A stretch of 44,313 nucleotides of DNA from the NCBI GenBank assembly GCA_934661735.1, contig CAKUJN010000006.1, positions 1-44,313 of the forward strand. The letters are read 5' to 3'. Shown piece by piece: positions 23,990-44,313 of the stretch. The first letter of the stretch is position 1. Each line of letters begins with the position of its first letter. The translations under genes and the position numbers were made by a program. The notes under the pieces are model-generated. The model was not told the DNA's origin, ran no database searches, and was given only the letters and a program-made list of their open reading frames with translations. Origin of the DNA: an uncultured Oscillospiraceae bacterium. GTDB lineage: Bacteria; Bacillota; Clostridia; Oscillospirales; Oscillospiraceae.

Positions 23990-24001
23990 CCTGCAATCCC
24001 T

Positions 24002-25939: not shown

Positions 25940-26971
25940 ATGACGATCAAGGATCTTGCACGCGAGAGCGGCTACTCACTCGGTACCGTGTCGCGCGTTC
26001 TAAACAACCAGCCGAATGTTTCTGATAAGGCGCGCAGGGCAATTCTGGCCATTGCGGAGGCAAACGGCTTTGAACTGAATCAGAGCGCGCAGCTGCTGAA
26101 GCAGCAGCGCTCGAACACCGTGCTGATTATCGTCAAGGGCACGTCCAACGAGATGTTTGCGCGTATGGTCGAGCAGCTGCAATCGCTGTTTTCCCGCACG
26201 ACGCATCCGCTGATTGTCGATTTCATCGATGAGGACGAGAACGAGGTGCTGCGCGGGGTACGGCTGTGCCGTGAGCGCAAGCCTGCGGGCGTGATGTTCC
26301 TCGGCGGAACGAATCAGAACTTTTTGTCAGATTTCGGCAAGATCGACATTCCGGCCGTCGTGGTGACAAACGACGCAAGCACGCTCCCGTTTGAAAACCT
26401 GTCCAGCGTCAGCACCAATGACCGCCGCGGCGCGGCCTGCGCGGTGGAGTACCTGATTCGCAGCGGACACCGCGAGATTGCGGTGCTGGGCGGCGACCGG
26501 AAGCTCTCCGATACGTCCGAGCAGCGCTATATCGGCTGCGTTGAGGCGTTCGCGCGCAATCAGCTGCGCTTTGACGAAAAAACCTGGTACCACACCGGAC
26601 GCTACAGCTATGAATCCGGCTATGCCGGTATGCAGGAGGTCCTGCGGCAGACGCCGCAGGTCACGGCGGTGTTTGCCATGGCGGACGTCATCGCCATCGG
26701 CGCAATCCGCGCGCTGGCCGACGCGGGACTGCGCGTGCCGGACGACATTTCGGTCATCGGTTATGACGGCCTGAAAATCGGCGGGTATTACACGCCGAAG
26801 CTTTCAACGGTCTCACAGTCGGTCGACCTGTTGGCCGAACGCGGCTTCACCGTCCTGATGGACTGTATGGAGCGCGGCGGGAAGGCACGGCATATTACCG
26901 TACCATTTACGCTGTCCAATCGCGAGAGCGTTAAAAAGACGGCCGGCGCGGAGCCGAGCGGCGGGAAATAG
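25940..26971 (+). CDS. LacI family transcriptional regulator
   Basis: A 344-residue repressor. The N-terminal helix-turn-helix and hinge are clear (MTIKDLARESGYSLGTVSRVLNNQPNVS), followed by a periplasmic-binding-protein-like effector domain ending SVIGYDGLKIGGYYTPKLSTVSQ. Start ATG 25940 follows GGAG; the frame is open further upstream but unrelated. Position between the transporter and malQ suggests it controls maltodextrin uptake and use, acting at the palindromes 22327-22340 and 22511-22524. Confidence 0.93.
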   Translation: MTIKDLARESGYSLGTVSRVLNNQPNVSDKARRAILAIAEANGFELNQSAQLLKQQRSNTVLIIVKGTSNEMFARMVEQLQSLFSRTTHPLIVDFIDEDENEVLRGVRLCRERKPAGVMFLGGTNQNFLSDFGKIDIPAVVVTNDASTLPFENLSSVSTNDRRGAACAVEYLIRSGHREIAVLGGDRKLSDTSEQRYIGCVEAFARNQLRFDEKTWYHTGRYSYESGYAGMQEVLRQTPQVTAVFAMADVIAIGAIRALADAGLRVPDDISVIGYDGLKIGGYYTPKLSTVSQSVDLLAERGFTVLMDCMERGGKARHITVPFTLSNRESVKKTAGAEPSGGK

Positions 26972-27068
26972 CGTCCGCCGGTCCGAGCAGGCAGAAAATC
27001 TGAATCCATTCCGGCTTCTGCCGATTACGGCGGGGCCGCTCCCAGCATAAGCAGTAAAGAGTGATATT

Positions 27069-28550: not shown

Positions 28551-28551
28551 T
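28524..28551 (+). promoter_or_regulatory. Promoter inside the end of malQ, driving glgP leader
   Basis: Consensus -35 TTGACA (28524-28529), 16 bp, consensus -10 TATAAT (28546-28551). Confidence 0.8.
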
Positions 28552-28558
28552 ACAGGGA

Positions 28559-28630
28559 ACGGCGCGAATGCGCCGGCTCTGAGCAGTTCCTGCGTCCACC
28601 CGCTCCGGACGGAGGGGGTGGACGTTTTTT
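28559..28630 (+). ncRNA. Candidate short terminated transcript / glgP leader
   Basis: From the promoter above, RNA starting near 28559 would fold GGCGC/GCGCC (28561-28574) and meet an intrinsic terminator (28594-28623 stem, T6 at 28625-28630) after ~72 bases. It is either an attenuator for glgP or a small RNA. Sequence alone does not decide. Confidence 0.4.
28594..28630 (+). terminator. Terminator between malQ and glgP
   Basis: GTCCACC...CTCC pairs with GGAG...GGTGGAC (28594-28623), then GTTTTTT. Confidence 0.8.
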
Positions 28631-28722
28631 ATCACGCGGCCGCGCCGGACTGCACGGTGCTGCCGGAAATCTGATATCGCGGACATTACCGCGGTATCCG
28701 CGAATTCCTGGAGGGAAAAACT

Positions 28723-31059: not shown

Positions 31060-31090
31060 GTGCACCTGCGATTTTTGGAAGAAAGCGTGT

Positions 31091-31126
31091 AAAGTCCCCG
31101 CCCTGCGGATGCAGGGCGGGGACTTT
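31091..31126. terminator. Terminator after glgP
   Basis: A perfect 16-bp stem (31091-31106, 31111-31126) with loop GGAT and A3/T3 ends, between convergent genes. Confidence 0.8.
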
Positions 31127-31148
31127 GGTGTGATACGGCGCTGCGCGT

Positions 31149-31775
31149 TCAGCGCTTTCCCTTTGCTTCGTCCAGATAGCTGTAAATCGTCACTTTGGAG
31201 ACGCCAAGGCGGGCGGCGACCTTTTCAATCGCGCCCTTGACCAGAAAAATGCCCTTTTCGTCCATGAAGCGGACCAGCTCGACGCACTTTTTCCGGTTCA
31301 TCGGCGTGCCGTCGACGGGAGAGAGAATGTTGTCAATCAGGCCGTCGATGATGGAGACGACGTCCTCGCGAGCATCGACCTCGGCGGCGGACGGCGATTC
31401 CTGTGCGGCGCCGCAGAACTCGGCGAGCTGACGGAACAGGTTCTGTCCGGCGGTCAGATCGCAGTTGACGCAGAGCATGCCGATGACCTCGCCGCCGTCG
31501 CGGATAAGGGCGGAGGAGGATTTGATTGTTCTGCCGTCGGGCGTCTGAAAGGTGTAGTTGTTGGACTGGTCGTTCTGAAAGTCCTTGCTCAGCAGGACGT
31601 TTTTGATCAGATGGTCAAAGGACTGACCGACCTTTCGGCCGGTGACCGAGCCCGCAACATGCACGACCGAGGTTTCCGGCTGGGAAAAGTCGTGGATGGC
31701 GGCCTCGCAGCTGCTGCCGAAGGTGGCTGCGATCATGTCTGCGATGGGGAAATAGGCTTTGAGCTTTTCATTCAT
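31149..31775 (-). CDS. YheO-like PAS/helix-turn-helix regulator (DauR-like)
   Basis: A 208-residue regulator. The N-terminal YheO-type PAS-like sensor (YFPIADMIAATFGSSCEAAIHDFS) is followed by a C-terminal HTH ending ARLGVSKVTIYSYLDEAKGKR. Known relatives (DauR) control D-amino-acid use in response to small ligands. No clear target lies next to it; the D-amino-acid operon at 15-17.7 kb is a speculative partner. The start has AAAGGAAG upstream, and the gene is divergent from the marR-MATE operon. Confidence 0.85.
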   Translation of the reverse strand: MNEKLKAYFPIADMIAATFGSSCEAAIHDFSQPETSVVHVAGSVTGRKVGQSFDHLIKNVLLSKDFQNDQSNNYTFQTPDGRTIKSSSALIRDGGEVIGMLCVNCDLTAGQNLFRQLAEFCGAAQESPSAAEVDAREDVVSIIDGLIDNILSPVDGTPMNRKKCVELVRFMDEKGIFLVKGAIEKVAARLGVSKVTIYSYLDEAKGKR

Positions 31776-31823
31776 GGGAAGCTTCCTTTCTGCCTGCCGA
31801 ATTGTACGGTGCTGTCATAGAAT

Positions 31824-31851
31824 ATTTTATACGAAATGCAGAAAAAATCAA
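31824..31851 (-). promoter_or_regulatory. Promoter of the YheO-like gene
   Basis: On the minus strand, -35 TTGATT (31846-31851), 16 bp, -10 TAAAAT (31824-31829). Confidence 0.55.
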
Positions 31852-31863
31852 GTGTGGAATTGC

Positions 31864-31924
31864 TTGACAAATGTCCGAAATCGGACTATAATAGCGCCTG
31901 CTGCAAAAATGTCTGATTTCGGAC
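31864..31924 (+). promoter_or_regulatory. marR promoter with two MarR-type operators
   Basis: Consensus -35 TTGACA (31864-31869), 17 bp, -10 TATAAT (31887-31892). The spacer is itself the dyad GTCCGAAATCGGAC (31873-31886). A second, similar dyad GTCTGATTTCGGAC (31911-31924) overlaps the early transcript. This is a typical autorepression layout. Confidence 0.85.
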
Positions 31925-31941
31925 GAATGGAGGTATACGGG

Positions 31942-32439
31942 ATGCGGGAGAGCTCATACCGGCTGCTGATGGCGTACAACAGAGAAGTGAAAAAGCTGGA
32001 CGATCTCTACCGAAACGCTGCGAAACGGTGCGGCATGTCCGAGTGCGCATTCTGGATTCTGTATACACTGCGCGTTGAGCGGACGTCGTTTACACAGTCC
32101 GAAATCTGCGATTTCCTGCGCGAGCCGAAGCAGACGGTCAACTCCGCGCTGAAAAAGCTGGAGGCTGAGGGGTATCTTACGCTCGCTGCAAATGCGGATC
32201 AGCGCAGAAAGACCATCCGTCTGACGGATGCGGGAGAACGGCTTGCGGCGGAATCCGTGGACCGCATTGCCTCAGCGGAGGCGGGAGCGCTGTGCGCAAT
32301 GCCGCAGGAGGACCGCGATGCGTTTATCCGTCTGACGGGACAGTATCGCCGGCTTCTGGAGGCGCAGCTCCGGCAGGAGAAAAATCAATCTGAATCAGGA
32401 GAAGATACCGCTTCGGCGGATATGCGTGAACAAAAATGA
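31942..32439 (+). CDS. MarR family transcriptional regulator
   Basis: A 165-residue MarR protein with the winged-helix core (TQSEICDFLREPKQTVNSALKKLEAEGYLTL, then DQRRKTIRLTDAGERL). The start at 31942 has GGAGG eight bases ahead; an in-frame ATG five codons upstream overlaps that site. It overlaps the MATE gene by four bases (ATGA) and probably represses the pair through the two dyads in its promoter, being released by a toxic ligand. Confidence 0.9.
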   Translation: MRESSYRLLMAYNREVKKLDDLYRNAAKRCGMSECAFWILYTLRVERTSFTQSEICDFLREPKQTVNSALKKLEAEGYLTLAANADQRRKTIRLTDAGERLAAESVDRIASAEAGALCAMPQEDRDAFIRLTGQYRRLLEAQLRQEKNQSESGEDTASADMREQK

Positions 32440-33782
32440 AAAAACAGAAAACCCAGATTCAGCTTTCCGACCACTTTACATATGCAAAGCTTCTGCGCTT
32501 TGTGTTCCCGTCCATTGTCATGATGGTCTTTACATCGATCTACGGCGTGGTGGACGGGCTTTTCGTTTCCAACTTTGCGGGCAAGACCCCGTTTGCGGCG
32601 ATCAATCTGATCATGCCGTTTATCATGGTGCTGGGCGGCATCGGCTTTATGATCGGTACGGGCGGCACGGCGCTGGTATCCAAGGTCCTTGGCGAGCGCC
32701 AGCCCGAAAAGGCAAACCGGTATTTTTCCATGATGGTGCTGTTTACGGTGATCGTGGGCGCGGTGCTGACGGTGATCGGGATTGTGTTTATGGAGCCGGT
32801 GGCGCTGTTCCTCGGTGCGACGCAGGAGATGCTGCACGACTGTCTGGTCTATGGCCGGATTGTCATCGCCTTTACCGCGGCATTCATGCTGCAAAACGTG
32901 TTCCAGAGCTTCCTGATCGCGGCAGAGAAGCCGAAGCTCGGTCTGGCGGCGACAGTTGCGGCGGGCGTGACGAACATGGTGCTGGACGCGCTGTTCATCG
33001 CAGTGTTCGACTGGGGTGTTGCCGGCGCGGCAATTGCGACCGGTATCAGCCAGTGTGTCGGCGGGCTGTTCCCGCTGATCTACTTCCTGCGGCCGAACAG
33101 CAGCAAGCTCCGGTTGGTGCGCACGGGGCTTGAGCTTCGGGCGATTCTGAACGCGTGCGGAAACGGCTCGTCCGAGCTGATGAGCAATATTTCCTCGTCG
33201 ATTGTCAGTATGATCTACAACTTCCAGCTGCTGCGATATATCGGCGAGGACGGCGTTTCCGCCTATGGCGTGCTGATGTATGTGCAGTTTATCTTTGTCG
33301 CGATCGATATCGGCTACGCAATCGGCTGCGCGCCGATTGTCGGCTATCACTACGGCGCGCAGAATCACGGCGAGCTGAAGAACATCCTGAAAATGAGCAC
33401 GCGGCTGATGTGCGGCTGCGGCGTGGTGCTGACCGTGCTGGCGATGGTGCTGGCCGCGCCGCTGGCACGGCTGTTTGTCGGATACGATGCGGGATTGTAT
33501 GAGCTGACGCGGCACGCGTTCCGGCTGTTTGCGTTTGCGTTCCTGTTCTCGGGCTTCAATATTTTCGCGTCCTCGTTCTTTACGGCGTTGAACAACGGCC
33601 TTATTTCCGCGGCAATTTCCTTTTTGCGGACGCTGGTTTTCCAGACGTCGTCCGTTATCCTGCTGCCGCTGATCTTCGATGTTGACGGCATCTGGTACGC
33701 GATTACCGTCGCGGAGGTGTTTGCAACGATCATTTCGGTCATATTCCTGTTTGCGAAGCGGAAGAAATACCAGTACATGTGA
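32436..33782 (+). CDS. MATE family efflux transporter
   Basis: A 448-residue protein with twelve predicted membrane helices in two homologous halves, typical of MATE exporters of the DinF/NorM group, which use a Na+ or H+ gradient to expel drugs or metabolites. It starts KLLRFVFPSIVMMVFTSIYGVVDGLFVSNFAG, a clear MATE opening. Translationally coupled to the MarR gene, so it is the likely target of that regulator. A strong GC hairpin follows. Confidence 0.93.
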   Translation: MKKQKTQIQLSDHFTYAKLLRFVFPSIVMMVFTSIYGVVDGLFVSNFAGKTPFAAINLIMPFIMVLGGIGFMIGTGGTALVSKVLGERQPEKANRYFSMMVLFTVIVGAVLTVIGIVFMEPVALFLGATQEMLHDCLVYGRIVIAFTAAFMLQNVFQSFLIAAEKPKLGLAATVAAGVTNMVLDALFIAVFDWGVAGAAIATGISQCVGGLFPLIYFLRPNSSKLRLVRTGLELRAILNACGNGSSELMSNISSSIVSMIYNFQLLRYIGEDGVSAYGVLMYVQFIFVAIDIGYAIGCAPIVGYHYGAQNHGELKNILKMSTRLMCGCGVVLTVLAMVLAAPLARLFVGYDAGLYELTRHAFRLFAFAFLFSGFNIFASSFFTALNNGLISAAISFLRTLVFQTSSVILLPLIFDVDGIWYAITVAEVFATIISVIFLFAKRKKYQYM

Positions 33783-33790
33783 TTTTCAAG

Positions 33791-33816
33791 GCGGACGGCT
33801 CGGCGGAGCCGTCCGC
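33791..33816 (+). terminator. Hairpin terminator after MATE gene
   Basis: An 11-bp stem GCGGACGGCTC/GAGCCGTCCGC with loop GGCG, followed by TTGAG; the U run is weak. The repeat hairpin directly downstream may assist. Confidence 0.6.
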
Positions 33817-33818
33817 TT

Positions 33819-34012
33819 GAGTTTGTCAAAAAAGAGCTTTTGACAAGCTCTCAGACGCGAACCGCGCCGCTAGGTTTCGTCGCAGCAAGCTTTGCATGCA
33901 ATCGCGCGGCGCAGGGCTTGCGCGCTTGGAGCCTCACGCAACTTGCGTCACGTGGTGTGTTTTGTCTGACGTACACGCCGCCAGACAAAACTGATTGACT
34001 TTGGACTGAAGT
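33819..34012 (-). repeat. Intergenic repeat, copy B (inverted)
   Basis: Inverted copy of the element at 7340-7577. Both end segments are nearly identical (33946-33996 and 33819-33852), while the middle differs. The core again folds as GTTTTGTCTG/CAGACAAAAC. Confidence 0.8.
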
Positions 34013-34043
34013 GGGGAGGAGCGAATAAACGAAAAACAGGGGC

Positions 34044-34097
34044 TTGACAGATGCAGGGTATTCCTGTATAATAGCGACGGGGTTAGATGACTCTAAC
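34044..34097 (+). promoter_or_regulatory. Strong promoter with a GTTAGA-N4-TCTAAC box at the start site
   Basis: Consensus -35 TTGACA (34044-34049), 17 bp, -10 TATAAT (34067-34072). The perfect dyad GTTAGA-TGAC-TCTAAC (34082-34097) lies just after the expected start. Similar boxes recur at 34154, 35467, 35501, 39125 and 39160. A DtxR/Fur-like metal repressor is likely, given the flavodoxin downstream. Confidence 0.75.
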
Positions 34098-34141
34098 TAA
34101 TAAGAGAAACTGGAGCGCACGCGAAGGCGGCTGCGTTTTTT
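34079..34141 (+). ncRNA. Candidate box-controlled small RNA
   Basis: RNA from the promoter above would end at an intrinsic terminator (stem 34114-34123/34127-34137 with a 2-base bulge, loop GAAG, T6 at 34136-34141) after ~63 bases, before any start codon. It could be an iron-starvation small RNA or an attenuated leader of the DUF3793-flavodoxin operon. Not a class I recognise. Confidence 0.4.
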
Positions 34142-34153
34142 CTCGGTATACTG

Positions 34154-34169
34154 GTTAGGCTACTCTAAC
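34154..34169. promoter_or_regulatory. Second GTTAG box before DUF3793 gene
   Basis: GTTAGG-CTAC-TCTAAC, 12 bases before the AGGAGG ribosome site of the DUF3793 gene. A TATACT lies directly upstream (34147-34152). Confidence 0.65.
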
Positions 34170-34195
34170 TTGAAATGCGAACAGGAGGCGGAGTG

Positions 34196-34747
34196 ATGTC
34201 GGAGGAGCTTCTGGTGCGCCACTGCGCGCCGACACTGGCGGGAATCAAGACGGGGAATCTGTTTTCCTGCGCGTGTGAGAGCCGGAATGCGCTGACGGCG
34301 CAGATTCGCGCGCTGAACCGGCGGCTTGCGCCGAAGGGATTGTGCCTGCTTCCGCTGCGTGTGTCCGGCGAGCGCGCGCTGCTGTATCTGTTCCGACCGG
34401 CGCAGCTGCGCAGCGATCTGGAGCAGGAGGGTGCGGCGGAGCTTCTGCGCGCGGCAGGCTTTGACGCGTCGAACAGCATGCGCTGCCTCGGAACGCTGAT
34501 ACGCCGGCTGCGTGAGGGCGAACCGGTTCCGCATGAAATCGGGCTGTTTCTGAGCTATCCGCCGGAGGACGTGCGCGGCTTTATCGAGCACGGCGCGGAA
34601 AACTGCAAGCTCTCCGGATTGTGGAAGGTCTACGGCGATGCCGATGCGGCGCGAAGGCTGTTTGAAAAATATAAAAAATGCACACAAATATACTGCCGGC
34701 AATGGCGGGCGGGCGCTCCGGTGGAGCGGCTGGCCGTACCGGCATAA
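34196..34747 (+). CDS. DUF3793 family protein
   Basis: A 183-residue soluble protein of the DUF3793 family of Clostridia. The opening LVRHCAPTLAGIKTGNLFSC with conserved His/Cys, the central KGLCLLPLRVSGERALLYLFRP, and PHEIGLFLSYPPEDVRGFIEH are what I recall as family features. Function is unknown; members often sit near flavodoxins and iron genes, as here. ATG 34196 follows AGGAGG. It is directly followed by flavodoxin and preceded by metal-box-like operators, suggesting induction in iron shortage. Confidence 0.85.
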   Translation: MSEELLVRHCAPTLAGIKTGNLFSCACESRNALTAQIRALNRRLAPKGLCLLPLRVSGERALLYLFRPAQLRSDLEQEGAAELLRAAGFDASNSMRCLGTLIRRLREGEPVPHEIGLFLSYPPEDVRGFIEHGAENCKLSGLWKVYGDADAARRLFEKYKKCTQIYCRQWRAGAPVERLAVPA

Positions 34748-34769
34748 AAGACAAAAAGGAGCGATTCAA

Positions 34770-35195
34770 ATGAAAAAGACAGCGGTTATTTACTGGAGCG
34801 GAACAGGCAACACGGAATCCATGGCCAATGCCGTTCTGGAGGGTATGCGGAAAAACGGTGCGGACGCGGTGCTGCTGACGCCGGATCAGGTGGACGCACA
34901 GAGTCTGAAGGATCTGGACGCGGTGGCGATGGGCTGCCCGGCGATGGGCGATGAGACGCTGGAGGAAAGCGAATTTGAGCCGATGTTTGAGGCGTGCAAA
35001 AGCCATCTTGCCGGTAAGGACGCGGCGCTGTTCGGCTCATACGGCTGGGGCGACGGCGAGTGGATGCGCAGCTGGGAGCAGGCGTGCAGGGATGCGGGAA
35101 TCCGCCTTGTCTGCGAAAGCGTCATCTGCTGCGAGGCGCCGGACGACACGGCGCTGGACGCGTGCCGCGAGCTTGGCGCGGAGCTGAGCTGCTGA
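34770..35195 (+). CDS. Flavodoxin
   Basis: A 141-residue short-chain flavodoxin, an FMN electron carrier that can replace ferredoxin when iron is scarce. The FMN phosphate loop is SGTGNTES near residue 10; FGSYGWGDGEWM near residue 90 is the ring-binding loop. The start follows AAAAAGGAG with normal spacing. It is second in an operon with DUF3793 under two GTTAG boxes, which fits iron-starvation control. Confidence 0.95.
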   Translation: MKKTAVIYWSGTGNTESMANAVLEGMRKNGADAVLLTPDQVDAQSLKDLDAVAMGCPAMGDETLEESEFEPMFEACKSHLAGKDAALFGSYGWGDGEWMRSWEQACRDAGIRLVCESVICCEAPDDTALDACRELGAELSC

Positions 35196-35293
35196 GCGGA
35201 ACGGGCACAGCGGGCCGCTGACGGCCCGTAATGATAAATGTGACAATACCTCCTGATAAAAGGTCAACGCCGAAAGCTGTGCGGCAGAGGCGG

Positions 35294-35326
35294 AAATGCC
35301 CGTCTGCGGATGCAGACGGGCATTTT
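35294..35326 (+). terminator. Terminator after flavodoxin
   Basis: A perfect 14-bp stem AAATGCCCGTCTGC and complement (35294-35307, 35312-35325), loop GGAT. A smaller CGGGCCG/CGGCCCG hairpin lies at 35211-35228. Confidence 0.75.
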
Positions 35327-35390
35327 ATCGCCTGTTTTCGGAGCAGACAGACAATTCGTATGCCGGATGGGAAGAAATTGAAAATACCAC

Positions 35391-35454
35391 TTGAAAAACG
35401 GGACGGAATGTGCAAAAATAGAATTGTAGAGAGCTGTGCAGTGCACGGCTTTTT
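35391..35454 (+). promoter_or_regulatory. Promoter and terminator module upstream of the hydrolase fragment
   Basis: A -35 TTGAAA (35391-35396), 17 bp, extended -10 TGC-AAAAAT (35411-35419). A hairpin AGCTGTG/CACGGCT with T5 (35432-35454) follows. The layout mirrors 39034-39112. Any transcript would be only about 30 bases, so this may be a relic. Confidence 0.4.
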
Positions 35455-35465
35455 GCGGCGAGATC

Positions 35466-35517
35466 GGTTAGATAAAACTAACCTGCGTGACTGCATATTG
35501 GTTAGATCTTTCTAACC
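35466..35517. promoter_or_regulatory. Paired GTTAG boxes before the hydrolase fragment
   Basis: GTTAG-N6-CTAAC at 35467-35482 and the perfect GGTTAGA-TCTT-TCTAACC at 35500-35517, with CTGCATAT between them (35491-35498). Centres are 34 bp apart. The pair is nearly identical in layout to 39124-39175. Confidence 0.75.
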
Positions 35518-35576
35518 GGAAATGCCGGAATGCCGCGTTTCGTGCGGCGGCAACGGATAGAACGGAGGGATGTGCA

Positions 35577-35900
35577 ATGCATGTTCTGGAATACGGTCAG
35601 GAGCAGGAGAAAACGCTTCTGTTTCTGCCGTGCACGGCGGAGCCGGTGTGGGTGTTTGCGGACACGGTCGCGCTGCTGTCGCGGCGGTGGCACGTCTTTC
35701 AGGTGATTTACGACGGCCATCAGCCGGAATATGCCGGAGACTTCACCTCGGTCGAGCAGACGGTGGATGCGGTGACGGAATATCAGAGTCTGGACGACCC
35801 GTCAGTCAGCGGGTTTTTCCGCTTCCTCGCCAGAGTCGGCGACGGAAAAATGAAAATGCAGATTGTGCGGATGGATTTCGCGGTCGGCGCGAAGCGGTGA
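35577..35900 (+). CDS. Short alpha/beta-hydrolase-like fragment, probably degraded
   Basis: A 107-residue frame starting MHVLEYGQEQEKTLLFLPCTAEP after a GGAGG site. Its first ~60 residues look like the N-terminal strand region of the hydrolase at 39213 (sugar- or lipid-ester type), and it shares that gene's unusual double-box promoter. It then turns into an unrelated tail (FFRFLARVGDGKMKMQIVRMDF) and stops before any nucleophile serine. I read it as a truncated or rearranged paralogue; a small functional protein cannot be excluded. Downstream, 35901-36099 holds no gene but has a 12-bp inverted repeat TTCCGCTGCATA/TATGCAGCGGAA (35938-35949, 35993-36004). Confidence 0.55.
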   Translation: MHVLEYGQEQEKTLLFLPCTAEPVWVFADTVALLSRRWHVFQVIYDGHQPEYAGDFTSVEQTVDAVTEYQSLDDPSVSGFFRFLARVGDGKMKMQIVRMDFAVGAKR

Positions 35901-36099
35901 GTGTATACAGCGGTTTTCGATGTGACGGGCATAAAAATTCCGCTGCATAGGAACAGACAACAGAGTCGCCGATAAACGGGCCTGTAAGGTCATATGCAGC
36001 GGAAGCCGGCAGAATCAGTATAAGTGACCGGTCAGAAAAGGTCAAGCCTGAATTTTAGAATCAAACAGACGAACAGAAATCGGATATAGGGGGAGACAC

Positions 36100-36963
36100 A
36101 TGTCCAGAAAAGCGACGGAATTTCAGAAGCGGGAAATGAGCAGGATGTATCGCGGCAAAGAGATTTTCAAGCCGCTGAATACCGGATGGATCGATGAAAA
36201 CGTGGCGTGCGTGCGCGAGTGGGTGGCGAATATTTTCTTCTACCGCAAAGGCGGCACGACCATCATGATCGACGCCGGATACAACTATGACCGGCTGGCG
36301 GAGAAGATGGGATGGCTCGGCATCGACCCGAAGAGCATCCGGCACATTCTGATCACGCATCAGGACACCGACCATGTGGGCGCCGTCGAGGCCGACAGCG
36401 CGGGACTGTTCCGGAGCGCGAAGCTCTATGTCGGTGAGATTGAAAACCGATATCTGACGGGTGAGACGCGGAGAAAGGTCATCTATCACCTGTACAGGCT
36501 GCCGCAGGTGACGATCCGCAACGAAAAGGTCCTTTTGCAGGACGGGCAGGTGTTTGAGATCGACGGCATTCAGATCGAGTGCTTTCTGGTCCCAGGGCAC
36601 ACATGGGGACATATGGTGTATCTGATCGACGGAAAGTATCTGTTTACCGGCGACACGATCTGGTTCGGTGCGGACGGCGGCTACAGCTTTATTTCTGCAC
36701 TGGCGGAGGACAACAAACTTGCGGTGAAGTCACTGGCCGAGCTGGAGGAAAGGCTGAAAAAACGCGGGCTGCGGCCGGTGTTTCTGACGGGCCACACGGG
36801 CTGGACGGACAATTATGCCTTCGCCTTTGCCCACAGAGAACAGCTCTGTTCGCCGTTCGGCAGACGCGTCCACGACCCGAACGCGCCGTATGACGCGTAT
36901 GACGAGTCCGACGACACGGAGGAAAACGCGAAAAGCGGATTTTTGAAGGGCGTGGGCAGATAA
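36100..36963 (+). CDS. MBL-fold metallo-hydrolase
   Basis: A 287-residue metallo-beta-lactamase-fold protein. The metal motif reads H87-x-D89-x-D91-H92 (THQDTDHVG), with Asp in place of the usual second His of HxHxDH. Later metal ligands are present in PGHTWGHMVY and GDTIWF, and a terminal His in LTGHTG. The start follows AGGGGGAG. The substrate is unknown; relatives hydrolyse thioesters, lactones or phosphoesters. It stands alone, followed by a strong terminator. Confidence 0.87.
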   Translation: MSRKATEFQKREMSRMYRGKEIFKPLNTGWIDENVACVREWVANIFFYRKGGTTIMIDAGYNYDRLAEKMGWLGIDPKSIRHILITHQDTDHVGAVEADSAGLFRSAKLYVGEIENRYLTGETRRKVIYHLYRLPQVTIRNEKVLLQDGQVFEIDGIQIECFLVPGHTWGHMVYLIDGKYLFTGDTIWFGADGGYSFISALAEDNKLAVKSLAELEERLKKRGLRPVFLTGHTGWTDNYAFAFAHREQLCSPFGRRVHDPNAPYDAYDESDDTEENAKSGFLKGVGR

Positions 36964-36982
36964 TTTGCAATAAAGACTACAG

Positions 36983-37013
36983 ACGGCCCGACGGGAGAAT
37001 CCCGTCGGGCCGT
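36983..37013 (+). terminator. Terminator after the MBL gene
   Basis: A perfect 14-bp stem (36983-36996, 37000-37013) with loop GAA, then TGGCTGTTT. Confidence 0.75.
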
Positions 37014-37422
37014 TGGCTGTTTGCAGAAAGCGGGCGATAGATAAAAGTAAAGAGTCCGCAAGCAGGGTACAATGCTTCCGTGCACGGAAGCCCTGTACAT
37101 AACGTCCAAGACGAACTGCCGCAAGACTCTTTTCAAGCATAAACTGCACTTCTGTTTTCTGTACAGCATGATTCTGGAAAAATGTCAAGGTATAAGAAAG
37201 CAGTCGGCGCTCTTTCCGAAACCGATGTGCCCGCCCGAAGCGGATCAACAGGCCGAAGCCCCCCCAGCAAACACGTCCAAGACGCAGAAAGCAGCGCCGA
37301 CTGCTACTCCAGCATAGCAGAGTCCGGCGGTTTTGTCAAGGTGCGGAGCGGATGCAGAAAAGCGTCGCGGTGTGCGGAAAACTGTGATAGAATACAGAAA
37401 AGCGCACAGGGAGGGAACGCAA
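37014..37422. other. Unexplained structured intergenic region
   Basis: About 400 bases without a credible gene. It holds a perfect 18-bp palindrome GCTTCCGTG/CACGGAAGC (37074-37091) inside a GTAC/GTAC pairing, and an outer AGAGTC (37051-37056)/GACTCT (37125-37130) pairing followed by TTTT. A 12-base direct repeat ACGTCCAAGACG occurs twice (about 37102 and 37273). A long-range inverted repeat GCAGTCGGCGCT/AGCGCCGACTGC lies at 37200-37211 and 37293-37304. A -10-like TAGAAT (37388-37393) may serve the MGMT gene. It could be a structured RNA or a decayed mobile element. Confidence 0.45.
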
Positions 37423-37719
37423 ATGGAGCAGTCGTTCGCGCTGGCGGTTCTGGATGTGGTGGCGGGCATTCCGGCTGGGTTTGTGACGACGTATGGCGAT
37501 ATCGCGCGCCTGCTGGGCAGGGCGCGCAATGCGCGGCAGGTCGGGAGGATTCTGTCACAGGCGGAGCTGTACGGGGACTATCCCTGTCACCGCGTCGTCA
37601 ATCACGCCGGACGGACCGTACCAGGCTGGAGCGGACAGCGGACGCTTCTGGAACGCGAGGGCGTGGCGTTTCGGGAAAACGGGACGGTGGACATGAAGCG
37701 CTTTCTGTGGCGCTTCTGA
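37423..37719 (+). CDS. MGMT family protein (methyltransferase DNA-binding domain)
   Basis: A 98-residue protein comprising only the C-terminal DNA-binding/active-site domain of O6-alkylguanine-DNA alkyltransferases. The active-site motif YPCHRVVN keeps the acceptor Cys (alkyltransferase-like proteins usually have Trp there), so direct methyl transfer remains possible. The helix-turn-helix VTTYGDIARLLG and the GWSGQ segment are present. The start follows GGGAGGG. The usual N-terminal domain is absent, as in many short clostridial forms. Confidence 0.87.
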   Translation: MEQSFALAVLDVVAGIPAGFVTTYGDIARLLGRARNARQVGRILSQAELYGDYPCHRVVNHAGRTVPGWSGQRTLLEREGVAFRENGTVDMKRFLWRF

Positions 37720-37736
37720 CGGCAAGACGGCGCGCG

Positions 37737-37765
37737 TTGCGTCCGCGGCGGAAATATGCTATGAT
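37737..37765 (+). promoter_or_regulatory. Promoter of the aldo/keto reductase gene
   Basis: A -35 TTGCGT (37737-37742), 17 bp, -10 TATGAT (37760-37765). Confidence 0.72.
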
Positions 37766-37795
37766 GGGAACAGAACAGGCAGGGGAGGAACGGAT

Positions 37796-38941
37796 ATGAA
37801 AACACGGAGACTTGGAAAAACCGGACTGGCGGTAAGCGAAATCGGCTTTGGCGGCGAGTGGCTGGAACGCCATCCGGAGGACGAGGGCGTGGCGCTGATT
37901 CACTACGCGGCGGAGCAGGAAATCAACCTGATGGACTGCTGGATGCCGGACCCGAAATCGAGAGACATCATCGGCAGAGGCATTCATGCGGACCGCGCGC
38001 ACTGGTTTGTTCAGGGCCACATCGGCTCGACGTGGAAGGACGGGCAGTACTACCGGACAAGAGAGATGGAATATGTGCGTCCGGCATTTGAGGACCTGCT
38101 GACGCGGCTGCAAACGGATTATATCGACCTCGGCATGATTCACTATGTGGACTCGGAGGCGGAATGGGAGCGCATTCAGCATTCGGACTATATGGACTAT
38201 GTGATGGAGCTGAAGCAAAGCGGCGTGATCCGGCACATCGGCATGAGCTCGCACAACCCGCGGGTCGCGCGGAAAGCCGCCGAGTCCGGCTTTGTGGAGA
38301 TGATTCTGTTCAGTATCAATCCGGCGTTTGACATGCTTCCGGCCAGCGAAGACATTGACACCATGTTTGCCGAAAAGTACGACGCGGCGCTGAAGGGCAC
38401 AGATCCGGAGCGCGCGGCGCTGTACCGGACGTGTGAGGAAAACGACGTGGGCATCACGGTCATGAAAGGCTTTGCGGGCGGACGGCTGTTTGATGAAAAG
38501 CGTTCGCCGTTCGGCGTGCGCCTGACGCCGGTGCAGTGCATTCACTATGCGCTGACGCGGCGGGCGGTGTGTTCGATTCTGTGCGGATACGATACGCGCG
38601 AGCAGGTTGAGGCGGCGGTGGCATATGAAACGGCATCGGACGCGGAGAAGGACTACGCCTCGGTACTGGCGAACGCGCCGCTGCACGCATGCCGCGGCGA
38701 ATGCACCTATTGCGGGCACTGCCGTCCCTGTGCCGCCGAGCTGGATATCGCAATGATCAACAAGCTCTATGACCTTGCGGTGATGCAGCCGGAGGTGCCT
38801 GCCACGGTACGGTCCCATTATGAGGCGCTGGAGCACACGGCGTCCGAGTGCATCGGCTGTCAGGCGTGCGAGAGCCGCTGTCCGTTCGGCGTGCCGGTTG
38901 CCGAGCGGATGCGGAAAACAGCGGAGCTTTTCGGCCGCTGA
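37796..38941 (+). CDS. Aldo/keto reductase with ferredoxin-like 4Fe-4S domain
   Basis: A 381-residue protein. The N-terminal ~280 residues are an aldo/keto reductase barrel (RRLGKTGLAVSEIGFGG, IDLGMIHYVDS, IRHIGMSSHNP). The C-terminal domain has two cysteine clusters, CRGECTYCGHCRPC and CIGCQACESRCP, expected to hold two 4Fe-4S clusters. Such fusions are common in anaerobes and probably couple a redox reaction to iron-sulfur electron transfer; the substrate is unknown. Its start follows GGGGAGGA. It has its own promoter and terminator. Confidence 0.92.
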   Translation: MKTRRLGKTGLAVSEIGFGGEWLERHPEDEGVALIHYAAEQEINLMDCWMPDPKSRDIIGRGIHADRAHWFVQGHIGSTWKDGQYYRTREMEYVRPAFEDLLTRLQTDYIDLGMIHYVDSEAEWERIQHSDYMDYVMELKQSGVIRHIGMSSHNPRVARKAAESGFVEMILFSINPAFDMLPASEDIDTMFAEKYDAALKGTDPERAALYRTCEENDVGITVMKGFAGGRLFDEKRSPFGVRLTPVQCIHYALTRRAVCSILCGYDTREQVEAAVAYETASDAEKDYASVLANAPLHACRGECTYCGHCRPCAAELDIAMINKLYDLAVMQPEVPATVRSHYEALEHTASECIGCQACESRCPFGVPVAERMRKTAELFGR

Positions 38942-38958
38942 GACGGGAAAAAACAGCG

Positions 38959-38994
38959 GGCCCTGTGGAATTGTGTGATTCCGCAGGGCCTTTT
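38959..38994 (+). terminator. Terminator after the aldo/keto reductase gene
   Basis: GGCCCTG/CAGGGCC with inner GGAAT/ATTCC (38959-38990), then TTTT. Confidence 0.85.
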
Positions 38995-39033
38995 CTGTGC
39001 AGTCATTTTTTGCCGGAAAACGGCGCGCGGGTA

Positions 39034-39062
39034 TTGAAAAGCGGAGTCGAGCGTGCTAAAAT
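39034..39062 (+). promoter_or_regulatory. Promoter upstream of the hydrolase module
   Basis: A -35 TTGAAA (39034-39039), 17 bp, extended -10 TGC-TAAAAT (39054-39062). Confidence 0.72.
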
Positions 39063-39068
39063 GCAAAT

Positions 39069-39112
39069 GGCCGGAGACAGCCGGACGGAACAGCCGCCGG
39101 AAGGCGGTTTTT
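39069..39112 (+). ncRNA. Candidate short terminated transcript before the hydrolase operon
   Basis: RNA from the promoter above would end at CCGCC-GGAA-GGCGG-T5 (39094-39112) after ~44 bases, just before the paired boxes. The same order is seen at 35391-35517. It may be a small RNA or an attenuated leader. Confidence 0.35.
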
Positions 39113-39123
39113 GATGACATAGA

Positions 39124-39175
39124 GGTTAGATAAAACTAACTGAATTCCTGCATATGGAGGTTAGAGAGAACAAAC
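39124..39175. promoter_or_regulatory. Paired GTTAG boxes before the hydrolase operon
   Basis: GTTAG-N6-CTAAC at 39125-39140 and a weaker GTTAGA-GAGA-ACAAAC at 39160-39175, with CTGCATAT between (39148-39155). The first 17 bases are identical to those at 35466-35482. Confidence 0.7.
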
Positions 39176-39212
39176 CGATACGGCATTTCAGATATGACGG
39201 GAGGCATGCGCG

Positions 39213-40007
39213 ATGCTGTTTGAGACAACAGGCAGTCGGGAGAAACCGGCGGTGCTGTTTTTCCACGCGATGGGCGTGACCGGCGCAAGCAGCGAGCCGG
39301 TGGCGGAATCCCTGCGCGAAAACTATTTCTGTATTCTGCCGACGTCCACGGTCTACTGCGCGGGGCAGAAATACGCCGGAAAGGCGGACGAGGTGCGGCA
39401 GGTGGAGGAATTCCTGCGAAAGCAGGGCGTGTCGCGTCTTGCGCTGGTCACGGCGTCGTCCATCGGCGCGGATCTGGCGCTGGCGTTTTTGGCGCAGACG
39501 GCGCTTCCGGTGGAGCATGCGTTCTTTGACGGCGGACAGTTTGCGCAGATTGCAGCGGGCACGCGAAGGCTGATGACGCCGTTTCTGTACCTTGCCATCC
39601 GGAGTCTGTACTGGTCAAAGGGCGCGACGCTCCGGCGCATCATGTGGTGCGATGACGCGGCCATCCGGCCGTATTTTATCGCGGCGGCGAAAAATCTGCG
39701 CTATGGCAATCTCCGTCGACAGATGTCGGACAGTCTGGAGGACAGGCCGTTTCTGCCGCTGCCGCCGGAGCTGCAGCGGCACGCATGGTTTTCCTTCGGC
39801 AGCGCGGAGGAGCATTTCAAGTACCGCAGCGCGGTGATGCAGGCGTATCCGGAGGCAAATTTCCCCGTTTTTGAGGGGTACAATCATATGCAGTATCAGA
39901 TTCGCGACCCGAAGGGCTTTGCGGCGATGCTCCGCTCGGTGATTGAGCGCGACACGCTGCCGGAGCTGCCTGTTCTGCGGCGTGATCTGCGGGAGGAGAA
40001 GCGATGA
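39213..40007 (+). CDS. Alpha/beta hydrolase
   Basis: A 264-residue alpha/beta hydrolase. The nucleophile elbow is A-S-S83-I-G in VTASSIGADLAL, the oxyanion strand is VLFFHAMGVTG, and a late His (YNHMQYQ) could complete the triad. The start follows GGGAGG. It overlaps the next hydrolase gene by four bases and is controlled by the paired GTTAG boxes upstream. The substrate is unknown; iron-linked control suggests an esterase for a siderophore or another stress-related ester, which is inference only. Confidence 0.82.
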   Translation: MLFETTGSREKPAVLFFHAMGVTGASSEPVAESLRENYFCILPTSTVYCAGQKYAGKADEVRQVEEFLRKQGVSRLALVTASSIGADLALAFLAQTALPVEHAFFDGGQFAQIAAGTRRLMTPFLYLAIRSLYWSKGATLRRIMWCDDAAIRPYFIAAAKNLRYGNLRRQMSDSLEDRPFLPLPPELQRHAWFSFGSAEEHFKYRSAVMQAYPEANFPVFEGYNHMQYQIRDPKGFAAMLRSVIERDTLPELPVLRRDLREEKR

Positions 40008-40861
40008 AACACATTCATTTTGATATTGAGACAGACGGATTTTACGGCGCGTACTGGGCGTGCGCGGGCGCGGACTGCGCGCTTATCGCCATGCTGGGTG
40101 ATGATCCGGAGGACCATACGGCGCGGTCGGGTGTGAAATGGCTGCTGAACCTTGGCGTGAACGTCATGACGATGTCGCCGGCCGGAAAGGACTATGGACA
40201 CCACAACTATCCGCTCGAGCGTATCGAGACGGCGATTGCATGGCTGAAGGCGCACGGAAACCGCAGAATCGGCATTGCCGGCGCGTCGACGACGGGAACG
40301 CTGGCGCTGACGGCGGCGTCGATGTTTCCCGAACTGACACTGACAATTGCGATGACGCCGAGCGACTTTGTCTGGCAGGGCTTCATGCAGGGAAAGCGCG
40401 ACGGCTGCAGGGAATGGCCGGTCGAGGGCGAATCGCTCTTTTCCTATCGGGGAAAGCCGCTGCCGTATATCCTGACGAAGCCTTTCCTCCTCAGCGTTGG
40501 CATGGAAGGAGTGGTGATCGCCGCCGCCACCATTACGGCGTTCTATCTGGGGCTGAGCTATGGCGGAGCCGCTGCCGGTCAGACGATGGCGTTTTCCACC
40601 CTGTGTTTAAGCCGCCTGTTCCACGGCTTCAGCTGTAAGTCACAGCATCCGGTGCTGCTGACCCAGAAGTTCTGGAACAACCGGGCGCTTTTAGGAGCCT
40701 TTGCCGCAGGCAGCCTGCTGCTGGGACTGGTGCTGTTCGTTCCTGCATTGGAGCCACTGTTTTCAGCTGCGCCGCTGTCTATTGGCATGATCGGTGCTGT
40801 AGTGGGACTGGCATTCTGTTCTATGCTGACAATTCAGTTGCTGAAGCGGTTCCGCCGCTAA
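40004..40861 (+). CDS. Acyl-CoA thioesterase/BAAT-like hydrolase fused to a P-type ATPase tail
   Basis: An in-frame chimera of 285 residues. Residues 1 to ~158 resemble BAAT-type alpha/beta hydrolases (IGIAGASTTGTLAL with Ser95, TPSDFVWQGFMQGKRDG, SYRGKPLPY). From ~161 on the sequence is the C-terminal membrane part of a calcium-type P-type ATPase (GQTMAFSTLCLSRLFHGF, then LLLGLVLFVPALEPLF). The hydrolase lacks its C-terminal His region and the ATPase lacks everything before its last helices, so neither half should work. Codon style changes near 40470-40490. It is either a deletion/recombination product or an assembly junction. Confidence 0.8.
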   Translation: MKHIHFDIETDGFYGAYWACAGADCALIAMLGDDPEDHTARSGVKWLLNLGVNVMTMSPAGKDYGHHNYPLERIETAIAWLKAHGNRRIGIAGASTTGTLALTAASMFPELTLTIAMTPSDFVWQGFMQGKRDGCREWPVEGESLFSYRGKPLPYILTKPFLLSVGMEGVVIAAATITAFYLGLSYGGAAAGQTMAFSTLCLSRLFHGFSCKSQHPVLLTQKFWNNRALLGAFAAGSLLLGLVLFVPALEPLFSAAPLSIGMIGAVVGLAFCSMLTIQLLKRFRR

Positions 40862-41012
40862 GCCCCCTCGCTCTGTGATAAAAACCGCAAAAAAGAAACC
40901 GGCATTTTTCCAAAATCACGCATTTTAACCGCAGTTGCGCAGATGAACAGCAGAAAAATATCTGCCGTCCGGTTCCGCAGCGGCGGCTGAAACGCAGTTG
41001 AAGATTGCTGTA

Positions 41013-41052
41013 CAAAAAACATGGAGGCTTCCGAAATCCGGAAACCTCCATA
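41013..41052 (-). terminator. Terminator of the SLH protein gene
   Basis: On the minus strand, ATGGAGG...TTCCG pairs with CGGAA...CCTCCAT (41021-41052), followed by GTTTTTTGTA. The stretch 40862-41012 holds nothing else recognisable. Confidence 0.75.
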
Positions 41053-41087
41053 AATTTATCAGATTCGACAAAAGAAGAATTGACCAC

Positions 41088-42182
41088 CTAGGCGGTGTAG
41101 AACGGCTCCAGATCGGTATGATTCTTCCATTCATCCGTGACACCGGCATCGCGCAGCAGCTCTGTCACGGTTTTATTCAAGGCATCGACCTTGGCACTGC
41201 TGACTGCCTTCGGGTCAAAGCAGGCATCGCCGGCATCGTCCAGAATCGCGGGATCCTCGCTGCCATCCAGCAGGGCGTTTGCCTGACGAAGCGCCTGCTG
41301 CCACTGGAAGGAGAAGAAGTCTTTCTGCGTTGCGTTCATTTCAGCCAGATAGGCTTTTACCGCATTTTCGGCTTTTCCGCTATCAATCATCGCGAGCTTC
41401 ATCAGAGAAACTGCAGCGTTTGCCTGCTGCAGGCTGCCGCCTGCGCTGCCGTGCGCGACAGTATCAATGCTCACGAGCAGATTGACCAGCGTATCCTTGC
41501 TCTCAGGTGCATACATCCAGCCGGTCACGTCACCGCTGTAATCCACCTTGTCGGTTGTCTGGGACTCCAGCCGGTACAGCAGCGTCACAAGCTGGGCGCG
41601 GGTGCAGGCGGCATCCGGCAGCAGACGGTTATTGGCTCCCTTGAGAATTTCCGTGTTGACCGCCCACGCCATCGCCTCGCGGGCGTATTCAGAAAGGCTG
41701 TCATAGTCGTTATACTCGCGGATCGCCATGCCGCCCTGCGTAGTGTCGAAGCCCTGCTGCTTTGCAAAGCGCCAGAGCATCGTGACCGCCTGCTCACGGG
41801 TCACGGCGTTCGCCGCGCCGAAGGTATTCTGACTGAGACCTGTCACAATGCCGAGGCTTGCTGCCCAGCGGACGGCTTCTGCGTAATAGGAACTCTCTTT
41901 CACATCAGAAAAGTTCATCGCGTAATTCACGACCGGCTTCCCAGCGGCGCGCCAGAGGAAGGTCACAAAGTCGGCGCGCGTGCAGTCCCGATTCGGTGCA
42001 AATACGTCCTTGCTGACACCGGATGTGATTTCCTTTTCGACCGCCCAGTTGACAGCGTCATAAAAATAATCCTGTTTCGATACGTCTGTAAACGCCTGTG
42101 CCGGTTCTGTGGCAAGCGCCTGTGCGCTCAATAGCATCACGGCTGCCAGCAGCAAACTGAAAACCCGAATGGTGCGTTTCAT
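41088..42182 (-). CDS. S-layer homology domain-containing secreted protein
   Basis: A 364-residue exported protein. The signal peptide is MKRTIRVFSLLLAAVMLLSAQALA. Three SLH repeats follow, beginning around residues 31, 89 and 155 (FTDVSKQDYFYDAVNWAVE; FSDVKESSYYAEAVRWAAS; YNDYDSLSEYAREAMAWAV). These anchor proteins to cell-wall polymers. The C-terminal ~150 residues are helical without a domain I recognise. I use the ATG at 42182, with GGAGGC ahead; the longer frame would start before the signal peptide. Confidence 0.9.
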   Translation of the reverse strand: MKRTIRVFSLLLAAVMLLSAQALATEPAQAFTDVSKQDYFYDAVNWAVEKEITSGVSKDVFAPNRDCTRADFVTFLWRAAGKPVVNYAMNFSDVKESSYYAEAVRWAASLGIVTGLSQNTFGAANAVTREQAVTMLWRFAKQQGFDTTQGGMAIREYNDYDSLSEYAREAMAWAVNTEILKGANNRLLPDAACTRAQLVTLLYRLESQTTDKVDYSGDVTGWMYAPESKDTLVNLLVSIDTVAHGSAGGSLQQANAAVSLMKLAMIDSGKAENAVKAYLAEMNATQKDFFSFQWQQALRQANALLDGSEDPAILDDAGDACFDPKAVSSAKVDALNKTVTELLRDAGVTDEWKNHTDLEPFYTA

Positions 42183-42198
42183 ACAAATGCCTCCATAT

Positions 42199-42375
42199 TT
42201 ATTGGATCTTGTATCCATCTTTGCATTTTTCCAGCGCAAAGTGCATCTGCGCCTCGTGGGTCGCAAACGGAAGCTGTTCAAATCCGTCCGCCGGATGAAA
42301 AGAAATAATCTGATTCAGATGATCGATCCACACGGCGCAAAGCTCTTTGAAATGTTCCAGCGGCTCCTCGTTCAT
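42199..42375 (-). CDS. Small hypothetical protein, 58 residues
   Basis: An intact short gene. AAAAGGAG lies eight bases before ATG 42375; the product begins MNEEPLEHFKELCAVWIDHL and ends EKCKDGYKIQ before TAA. It has no signal peptide or membrane segment and is acidic at the start with a Lys-rich end. It lies 16 bases upstream of the SLH gene on the same strand and probably forms an operon with it. I do not recognise the family. Confidence 0.7.
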   Translation of the reverse strand: MNEEPLEHFKELCAVWIDHLNQIISFHPADGFEQLPFATHEAQMHFALEKCKDGYKIQ

Positions 42376-42406
42376 CGTACACGCTCCTTTTCTGCTTTAT
42401 AACATA

Positions 42407-42435
42407 ATTTTAGTCGGTTTATCTTGTAAAAACAA
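42407..42435 (-). promoter_or_regulatory. Promoter of the small gene-SLH operon
   Basis: On the minus strand, -35 TTGTTT (42430-42435), 17 bp, -10 TAAAAT (42407-42412). It overlaps the divergent pucR-like promoter. Confidence 0.6.
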
Positions 42436-42484
42436 GAAACTGGCAGTACAATAAAGAAAAAGAGACTTGTGCAAAGCGCACAAG
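42424..42484 (+). promoter_or_regulatory. Promoter of the PucR-family gene with a dyad
   Basis: A -35 TTGTAA (42424-42429), 17 bp, -10 TACAAT (42447-42452). A dyad CTTGTGC-N5-GCACAAG (42466-42484) lies in the early transcript, possibly an autoregulatory site. Confidence 0.6.
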
Positions 42485-42501
42485 CGAAAGGATATCGCCA
42501 T

Positions 42502-43734
42502 ATGGCTGCAACACAGTGGGAAACGTGCAGCGCCGATGCGCTGCTGCGGGAATTTTTTGCGCAGGACGATCTAAGTCGCCTCGCAGAAGGCGCGGGCGCG
42601 CTGCTGGGCTGTCCGCTTCTGGTGCTGGACGATACGTTTCATGTTGCCGCGCACCATCTGCCGCTGGGGTTTTCCGATGCGGTGTTTCAGGCGTCGGTGC
42701 GCAGCGGCGAGATCACTTATGAGGCAGGCGCGATCATCAGCCGAAGTCCTGCTCTGTCCGCAGGAGCGGCAGACTGCATCAAGCTTGCAGACAGTCCGTA
42801 CCGCCGCCGCTTTGCCCCGCTCGTCAGTGCGGGTGTGCGGCTGGGGTATCTGATCTGCGTCGACACGGACGGTCATCTGGAAAAAATCCCGGCGCAGACA
42901 TGGAATACCGTGGAGCAGATCCTGGCAAAGCAGCTTTTTGTCGAGGCAAGCCGCCAGGATAAGCCGTTTGAAACGGCGGAGGATATTCTCCGGCATTTGC
43001 TGGACGGCGGCTTTCCGTCCGCACCGTATTTCAGGCTGCAAATTGCGGGCACTTATCTGGCAGACTTCCATCCACTTGCTTTCGCGCTCATCGATCTGAC
43101 TGCCTATCACAGCGGATATCTCGGGCAGCGCCATCTGAAGGAGGAAGCAACGGCGATTTTCCCGGACTCCCATTCTTTTTTATACAAAGGAAATGTTATG
43201 CTTTTTCTGCACCGGCGGGAAGATATGGATCGATTTCCCGTACTGGCGGAGGAATTTCAGCTCAAGGTCATCGTGTCGGAGCAAATAGACGAGTTGTTTT
43301 CGCTGCCTGCACTCTATCGTACGGCGTGCGAGGCACTGGCGCTGATGACGGATGAACGCTTCCACGGCGGTCGCGTCTACACTGTTGCGCAGCTGCGCAC
43401 GCCGCTGCTGCTGAAAAATCTGGAAGGGCGGGAAGATTTGATCGCGCAGGAGGTGCGAACCCTTGCCGCGCACGACCGGGAAAAGGGCACACAGTACTGC
43501 GAAACGCTCTATTATTACCTGATCTGCTGCCGGTCGCTGCAAAAGACCTGCGATGCGCTTTTTACCCATCGAAACACGGTGCTCTACCGCATCCGAAGAA
43601 TGCAGGAGGAATTCGGTATCCCGCTGGATGAACCGCTCAAGCATGCCGATCTGCTGCTGAGCGTGTCGCTTCTTTTGTTTGAAGCGAAAGGACCGGATTT
43701 CTTCCTGCCCAAAACGCCGCTTGATAATTCATAA
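42502..43734 (+). CDS. PucR/CdaR family transcriptional regulator
   Basis: A 410-residue regulator. An N-terminal GAF-like sensor region and a central GGDEF-like CdaR domain precede a C-terminal PucR helix-turn-helix (LQKTCDALFTHRNTVLYRIRRMQEEFG). Members sense purine or organic-acid metabolites. The ATG at 42502 follows GAAAGGA; the frame extends 11 codons upstream without support. It is divergent from the small gene and SLH gene, which are possible targets. Confidence 0.87.
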   Translation: MAATQWETCSADALLREFFAQDDLSRLAEGAGALLGCPLLVLDDTFHVAAHHLPLGFSDAVFQASVRSGEITYEAGAIISRSPALSAGAADCIKLADSPYRRRFAPLVSAGVRLGYLICVDTDGHLEKIPAQTWNTVEQILAKQLFVEASRQDKPFETAEDILRHLLDGGFPSAPYFRLQIAGTYLADFHPLAFALIDLTAYHSGYLGQRHLKEEATAIFPDSHSFLYKGNVMLFLHRREDMDRFPVLAEEFQLKVIVSEQIDELFSLPALYRTACEALALMTDERFHGGRVYTVAQLRTPLLLKNLEGREDLIAQEVRTLAAHDREKGTQYCETLYYYLICCRSLQKTCDALFTHRNTVLYRIRRMQEEFGIPLDEPLKHADLLLSVSLLLFEAKGPDFFLPKTPLDNS

Positions 43735-43831
43735 TGTGGTCATGTTTCAAACAAGATTTCGTCACAACTTCCTGTCACAATAACGCCAGTTCGAAAGAAC
43801 GGAACACACTTGATGAAAGGAAATTGGATTT

Positions 43832-44313
43832 ATGAAAAAAGTATTGGCTATTCTGCTGGTCCTTTCGGTGCTGGCATTGAGCGCCTGTGCAGCCAAGCAG
43901 GCTAATTCGGATACACAGAAGGACTCCAACACAGCGGAAACGGAGCAGCAGCCGGATTCTGCGCAGACCGCAGAAACACAGCAGCCCGCGCAGGAAGCAA
44001 AGCGCATCGAGCCGCTGCCGGAAGATCTTGATCTGAACGCACTGACCGACGCGACCGTCGCAGCAAGCTTCGGCGTGGAGGATATTTCCGAAAAAGACGG
44101 CAAGATGGAAATTTCCCTGACGGTTTATGACTACGATGTCTACGACATGGTGGATATCTCGCAGCTTGCCGTCGGCGATACCATCGTCGTGGACGGCAAG
44201 GACATGGTCGTTGCATCCCGCGAGGACAAGGACGGCTTTGTTACCATCAATGGAGGACTCGAGCAGGGCGGTGTCGATCTGACGAGCGATGACAGCGGCG
44301 TTTATTATGCCGT
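43832..44313 (+). CDS. Putative lipoprotein, truncated by the window end
   Basis: An open frame from ATG 43832 (GAAAGGAAA ahead) to the last base, about 160 residues so far. The signal peptide MKKVLAILLVLSVLALSAC carries the lipobox LSAC (Cys19). A Gln/Thr/Glu-rich linker follows, then a soluble domain with VAASFGVEDISEKDGKMEI and VGDTIVVDGKDMVVASRED segments. I do not recognise the domain. Upstream, GTCACAA is directly repeated at 43761-43767 and 43774-43780. Confidence 0.8.
   Translation, partial: MKKVLAILLVLSVLALSACAAKQANSDTQKDSNTAETEQQPDSAQTAETQQPAQEAKRIEPLPEDLDLNALTDATVAASFGVEDISEKDGKMEISLTVYDYDVYDMVDISQLAVGDTIVVDGKDMVVASREDKDGFVTINGGLEQGGVDLTSDDSGVYYA

Follow-up and report, generated by a model that had tools for sequence, protein, structure and literature searches.

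The chimeric reading frame

The window, by which we mean the whole 44,313-nucleotide stretch of Oscillospiraceae DNA that was analysed, contains near its right end an open reading frame in which the first half of a thioesterase-like hydrolase gene runs into the tail of a calcium-type P-type ATPase gene. The features of this region are as follows.

39213 to 40007, plus strand: gene next upstream, in the left block; it resembles a hydrolase by eye and has no Pfam match; protein P0122 is 97% identical
40004 to 40861, plus strand: chimeric ORF of 285 aa, from the open frame and Pfam
40004 to 40466, plus strand: 5' half of a gene for a BAAT_C-type hydrolase, ending at the common ATAT; matched by 79 of 80 fetched loci and by the intact relative P0006
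40467 to 40470, no strand assigned: the joint, a 4-base overlap (ATAT) common to the hydrolase and ATPase genes, from relatives' sequences
40471 to 40861, plus strand: 3' end of a P-type ATPase gene of the calcium type, comprising just the final membrane helices, from Pfam and comparison with POC01 and a Listeria pump
40467 to 44313, no strand assigned: right-hand block of ATPase tail, SLH protein, PucR-type regulator and putative lipoprotein, 94-95% identical to POC01; SLH and PucR by Pfam, lipoprotein by eye

A preliminary description had proposed such a fusion with neither half complete, and both points are borne out by Pfam matches to the whole ORF: Cation_ATPase_C covers residues 156-283 (E 6.6e-23), with only profile positions 45-175 of 175, and BAAT_C covers only residues 71-128, at an E of 0.0017 and 18.9 bits against a cut-off of 20.9. 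In the intact relative P0006, BAAT_C extends over residues 71-256 (E 3.9e-16). The two-part architecture thus stands, but the sizes of about 158 and 125 residues given for the parts do not; the hydrolase part comprises residues 1-155, its last codon ending at 40468, and the ATPase part the 130 residues from 156 to 285. The start of the ORF overlaps the stop of the upstream ORF at 39213-40007. We note that Pfam annotation by itself would label the whole a transporter.

The hydrolase part is aligned by all but one of the 80 fetched genome loci, the exception being the POC01 locus L030, which aligns to residues 149-285 only. In 75 of the 79 hydrolase-matching loci the main alignment stops at residue 155 or 156, and in L001, L002, L015 and L024 it continues to residues 163-174. 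The hydrolase is full length in 83 of 85 fetched hydrolase-matching loci, and in the other two it lies in two pieces that jointly span it.

What the two halves retain

Over 66 intact hydrolases, 48 positions are invariant, 26 within residues 1-155 and 22 beyond; the set consists of P0006 and 65 of the 80 loci, those whose match forms a single unbroken stretch that starts no later than residue 20 and reaches at least residue 290. The fusion retains the invariant S95 and lacks the invariant D217, D218 and H253, which, judging from the fold family, probably supply the acid and the base of the catalytic triad. It does not, then, hold the whole domain with nucleophile, acid and histidine that defines a BAAT_C-type hydrolase (PF08840). 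No solved structure was found that matches intact P0006 by sequence.

Compared with the ATPase remnant of POC01, which has both, the ATPase half is without the HAD-type domain and without positions 1-44 of the 175 in Cation_ATPase_C, and it has neither the phosphorylation and nucleotide-binding domains nor the full set of helices of a P-type calcium ATPase. Of the 634-residue ATPase frame of locus L094, just residues 493-629 match the window. Ion ligands of these pumps lie in the segment LLFINLLTDSLPAIALG, which is found 5' of the joint in POC01 and is missing from the fusion. With D217, D218 and H253 gone, as well as the greater part of the pump, we read the fused ORF as probably an inactive remnant, possibly a translated one, since its start overlaps the upstream stop. 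That overlap, the maintained frame and the presence of S95 could be cited for a functional, membrane-anchored hydrolase under selection, but 22 of the 48 invariant positions lie in the lost portion, the ATPase part is itself incomplete, and no independent fusion of the pair occurs among the 120 listed proteins; we consider this reading highly improbable.

The joint

Across the joint the window reads CCGTATATCCTGACG. Hydrolase relatives have TATATGCC at this position in seven of the ten loci printed, and P0006 has Tyr-Met at residues 155-156; the POC01 ATPase gene reads GAAGATATCCTGACG, the ATPase-gene version of the overlap being GATATCCTG. With the parental sequences taken from these relatives, the joint falls at 40467-40470, inside the interval 40465-40490 in which it had earlier been placed. 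By a hand estimate that assumes equal base frequencies, an overlap of at least 4 bases would arise by chance at about 1.6% of random joints, and the ATAT overlap suggests, short of proof, that microhomology was involved.

One might also ask whether the TATATG stretch of the hydrolase gene is a preferred point of breakage or integration, the fusion being one product of a recurrent and perhaps site-specific process. Separate joints at the same codon do exist in other lineages (P0031 and P0037), and of the 120 listed proteins, fused ones excluded, 29 depart early from the intact hydrolase; for P0014, P0031 and P0037 the departure is at residue 156. Three points tell against a hot spot: P0014 looks, by eye, like the normal gene with a frameshift, the listing is biased toward breaks at or after residue 156, where the hydrolase part of the query ends, and no long stretch of the hydrolase gene recurs in a relative of the partner gene of P0031. 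We hold a recurrent break point to be very unlikely.

These proteins have features of their own. In P0031 the hydrolase half, broken at residue 156, continues in frame into the end of an ABC-2 permease; genomes from the genus to which the Blautia wexlerae locus L009 belongs have unbroken hydrolase and permease frames. In P0037 the hydrolase half, broken at the same residue, is followed by sequence without assigned identity, on five contigs of up to 43.6 kb; this tail was not found in 297 genomes, in a search run without a positive control. P0002 and P0005 are hydrolases with an internal segment in tandem repeat, either real duplications or assembly errors.

Two flanks of different affinity

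Over the 3.8 kb from 40467 to the window end, the right-hand block aligns with contig 39 of Oscillospiraceae bacterium POC01 at 94-95% identity; the alignment falls into two pieces and takes in genes and intergenic DNA alike. No second copy of the block was found in the three genomes searched from POC01's genus, POC01 included. The shift in gene content to SLH, PucR and lipoprotein genes noted in the preliminary description is upheld for SLH and PucR by Pfam and, for a putative lipoprotein, by eye. The PucR-type regulator (42469-43734) has a 98% relative in a cluster of 4044 member sequences.

The left 40.4 kb has only scattered matches to POC01, of which the best reach 85% (8803-10212) and then 82%; none of at least 100 bases exceeds 85%, and a single short match of 62 bases has 86%. 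The hydrolase half and an aldo/keto reductase gene are 79% identical to POC01, and most other left matches lie at 66-78% (for 20467-40466, among matches with an E of 1e-30 or better). Four of these matches, at about 22.5-31 kb, keep the order of POC01 contig 6, with identities of 69-76%, so that they look like orthologues in another genus, not an island. Further left, at 17915-20163, a choloylglycine-hydrolase-family gene adjoins the gene of a nickel-insertion protein.

Composition breaks at the joint as well. The G+C content is 59.5% on the left and 54.6% on the right, the latter below that of all 367 left windows of 3847 bases, and the codon usage shift previously claimed for the boundary is confirmed by GC3, which ranges over 0.72-0.81 on the left (16 coding stretches) and over 0.64-0.69 on the right (4 stretches).

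The same two genes could in principle have been brought together by a deletion or inversion within one genome, given that POC01 has relatives of both, on separate contigs, and that in-frame joints at short repeats are common for deletions. The identities of the two flanks to POC01 differ, however, at 94-95% on the right and with no left match of at least 100 bases above 85%, their G+C contents are 5 points apart, and a single lineage should not show both affinities unless one side had been imported first; a simple deletion is thereby disfavoured and seems to us quite unlikely.

The gene at 39213-40007 has in P0122 (a cluster of 19 member sequences) a relative at 97%, and the other 119 listed relatives are at most 79% identical. 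Among 400 genomes of POC01's family (query 39200-42300), a sample of a larger group, all listed left matches of at least 200 bases are at or below 81%. The same ceiling holds for listed left matches of that length in the 31 genomes of the Faecalibacterium genus of locus L004 and in 394 genomes sampled from its order (query 36000-44313; matches with an E of 1e-100 or better). Among the genomes searched, then, none is a close carrier of the left flank.

The ATPase gene has a history of its own in POC01. Its ORF there has 418 residues, its match to the Listeria pump starts at about pump residue 476 (chain 9euq_A; ORF residues 18-414, E 2.8e-102), and no other match to the C-terminal ATPase family occurs in POC01. 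To its left lie a ParB-like ORF (by eye, with no Pfam match) and an IS200-type transposase (L030:3979-6423). With this ORF alone, lacking the first half and abutting an unrelated ORF, the gene is 5'-truncated in POC01 too, at a different point from that in the window.

Other public proteins with the same joint

At the protein level, an identical joint is found in three further public proteins, P0001, P0003 and P0004. P0001 has 285 aa, 6 member sequences and 2 contigs (up to 19,914 bases); it differs from the window protein at residue 136 alone and is thus a distinct haplotype. P0003 (179 aa) and P0004 (181 aa) lack the first part of the hydrolase half, starting only at its residue 107, and have the residue 136 of P0001. 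Over the 49 hydrolase residues that can be compared, 107-155, the two agree fully with one another and with P0006. The latter is an intact hydrolase of 319 aa, known from four contigs, and its residues 1-155 are those of P0001. The tails are less uniform, P0003 differing from the window at 3 of 130 positions and P0004 at 9. Tail positions 11 and 15 are G and V in the window and in all three proteins versus S and L in POC01, and the four tails diverge from one another only from tail position 53 on. Member counts are 6, 1 and 6 for the fused proteins and 4 for P0006, a rough guide only in a database clustered at 90% identity; 'ena' is the sole listed source of all four, and the fused proteins and the window might come from overlapping samples.

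A chimeric assembly, made from two species of the same sample by the assembly program or through a library artefact, would account for flanks unlike in affinity and composition, and the clusters of 4044 (PucR relative) and 19 (left neighbour) sequences indicate how an abundant and a rare species could have mixed. Yet the joint has just 4 common bases, and assembler word lengths are far above this. Moreover, the joint recurs in P0001, P0003 and P0004 alongside different substitutions, in one case on contigs of up to 19.9 kb, and the sharing of one joint by three proteins with differing residues disfavours a one-off misassembly. We therefore regard this explanation as unlikely.

Because the tails differ at up to 9 of 130 positions while 49 hydrolase residues are identical, a single event behind all the fused proteins would need later recombination or mixed-strain assembly. 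The tail pattern fits a single joint followed by exchange of its outer flank with alleles of POC01 type, or else mixed-strain assembly beyond the joint. It had been recognised that independent fusions of this architecture would make it a genuine protein family; no such independent fusions emerged, since the fused sequences found have one identical joint and the 85 hydrolase-matching loci contain the hydrolase either whole or in two pieces that jointly span it.

Origin of the junction

We suggest, with a probability of roughly 0.7, that the ORF is a chance in-frame remnant at the junction of two chromosomal segments of different origin, formed by illegitimate recombination at a 4-base microhomology. 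That the flanks differ in origin is argued by the right side's 94-95% identity to POC01 set against at most 85% on the left (matches of at least 100 bases), and by G+C contents of 54.6% and 59.5%. Of the possibilities offered at the outset, a recombination joint, a deletion or a misassembly, a real recombination joint is favoured by the unlike affinities of the flanks and by the recurrence of the joint in P0001, P0003 and P0004. A segment starting in the ATPase-SLH-PucR region of a POC01-like bacterium of about 55% G+C would have been joined, within the hydrolase gene, to the chromosome of a second, unsampled bacterium of about 60% G+C, related at about the genus level or beyond; the junction would then have been inherited and would now exist in several haplotypes. 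Observed directly are the two halves, the joint, the unlike affinities of the flanks, the recurrence of the joint in other public proteins and an intact hydrolase allele; we infer the horizontal transfer, the microhomology mechanism, the choice of the host side and the loss of function. Ordinary in kind, the fusion is genome debris, and it nonetheless offers a clean case of two genomic backgrounds meeting within one reading frame of which an unbroken allele is known.

Comparison with known systems

Integration of a mobile element would be expected to leave an integrase or transposase near the joint, or a tRNA target. The window has no tRNA gene, and no transposase or integrase family was found in its 35 ORFs scanned with Pfam (all except 43832-44311 and the small ORFs). 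The joint 23-mer had no match in viral contigs, positions 36000-44313 had none in plasmids, and positions 24000-44313 had a single phage match, of 0.4 kb and 76%, near 24.4-24.8 kb.

The first half of the fusion resembles the C-terminal family of BAAT and acyl-CoA thioester hydrolases (PF08840), which it matches weakly and intact P0006 matches over residues 71-256, but departs from it in lacking D217, D218 and H253. The second half is likened to the Listeria calcium pump lmo0841 by way of the POC01 remnant, which matches 9euq_A and to which the fusion tail aligns; unlike that pump, the fusion keeps only the last helices, and the POC01 gene is without its first half.

As to the event itself, the closest parallel is homology-facilitated illegitimate recombination (HFIR) in natural transformation, which links foreign to resident DNA at few common bases; passages of PMC6382021 mention segments of 3 to 10 bp and microhomology. 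The window joint likewise has few common bases, the ATAT at 40467-40470 providing the short microhomology at one end, with the parents deduced from relatives. HFIR differs in needing a homologous anchor at the other end, whereas the right block here extends as far as the window does. Other routes, for example conjugal entry with subsequent end joining, fit equally well.
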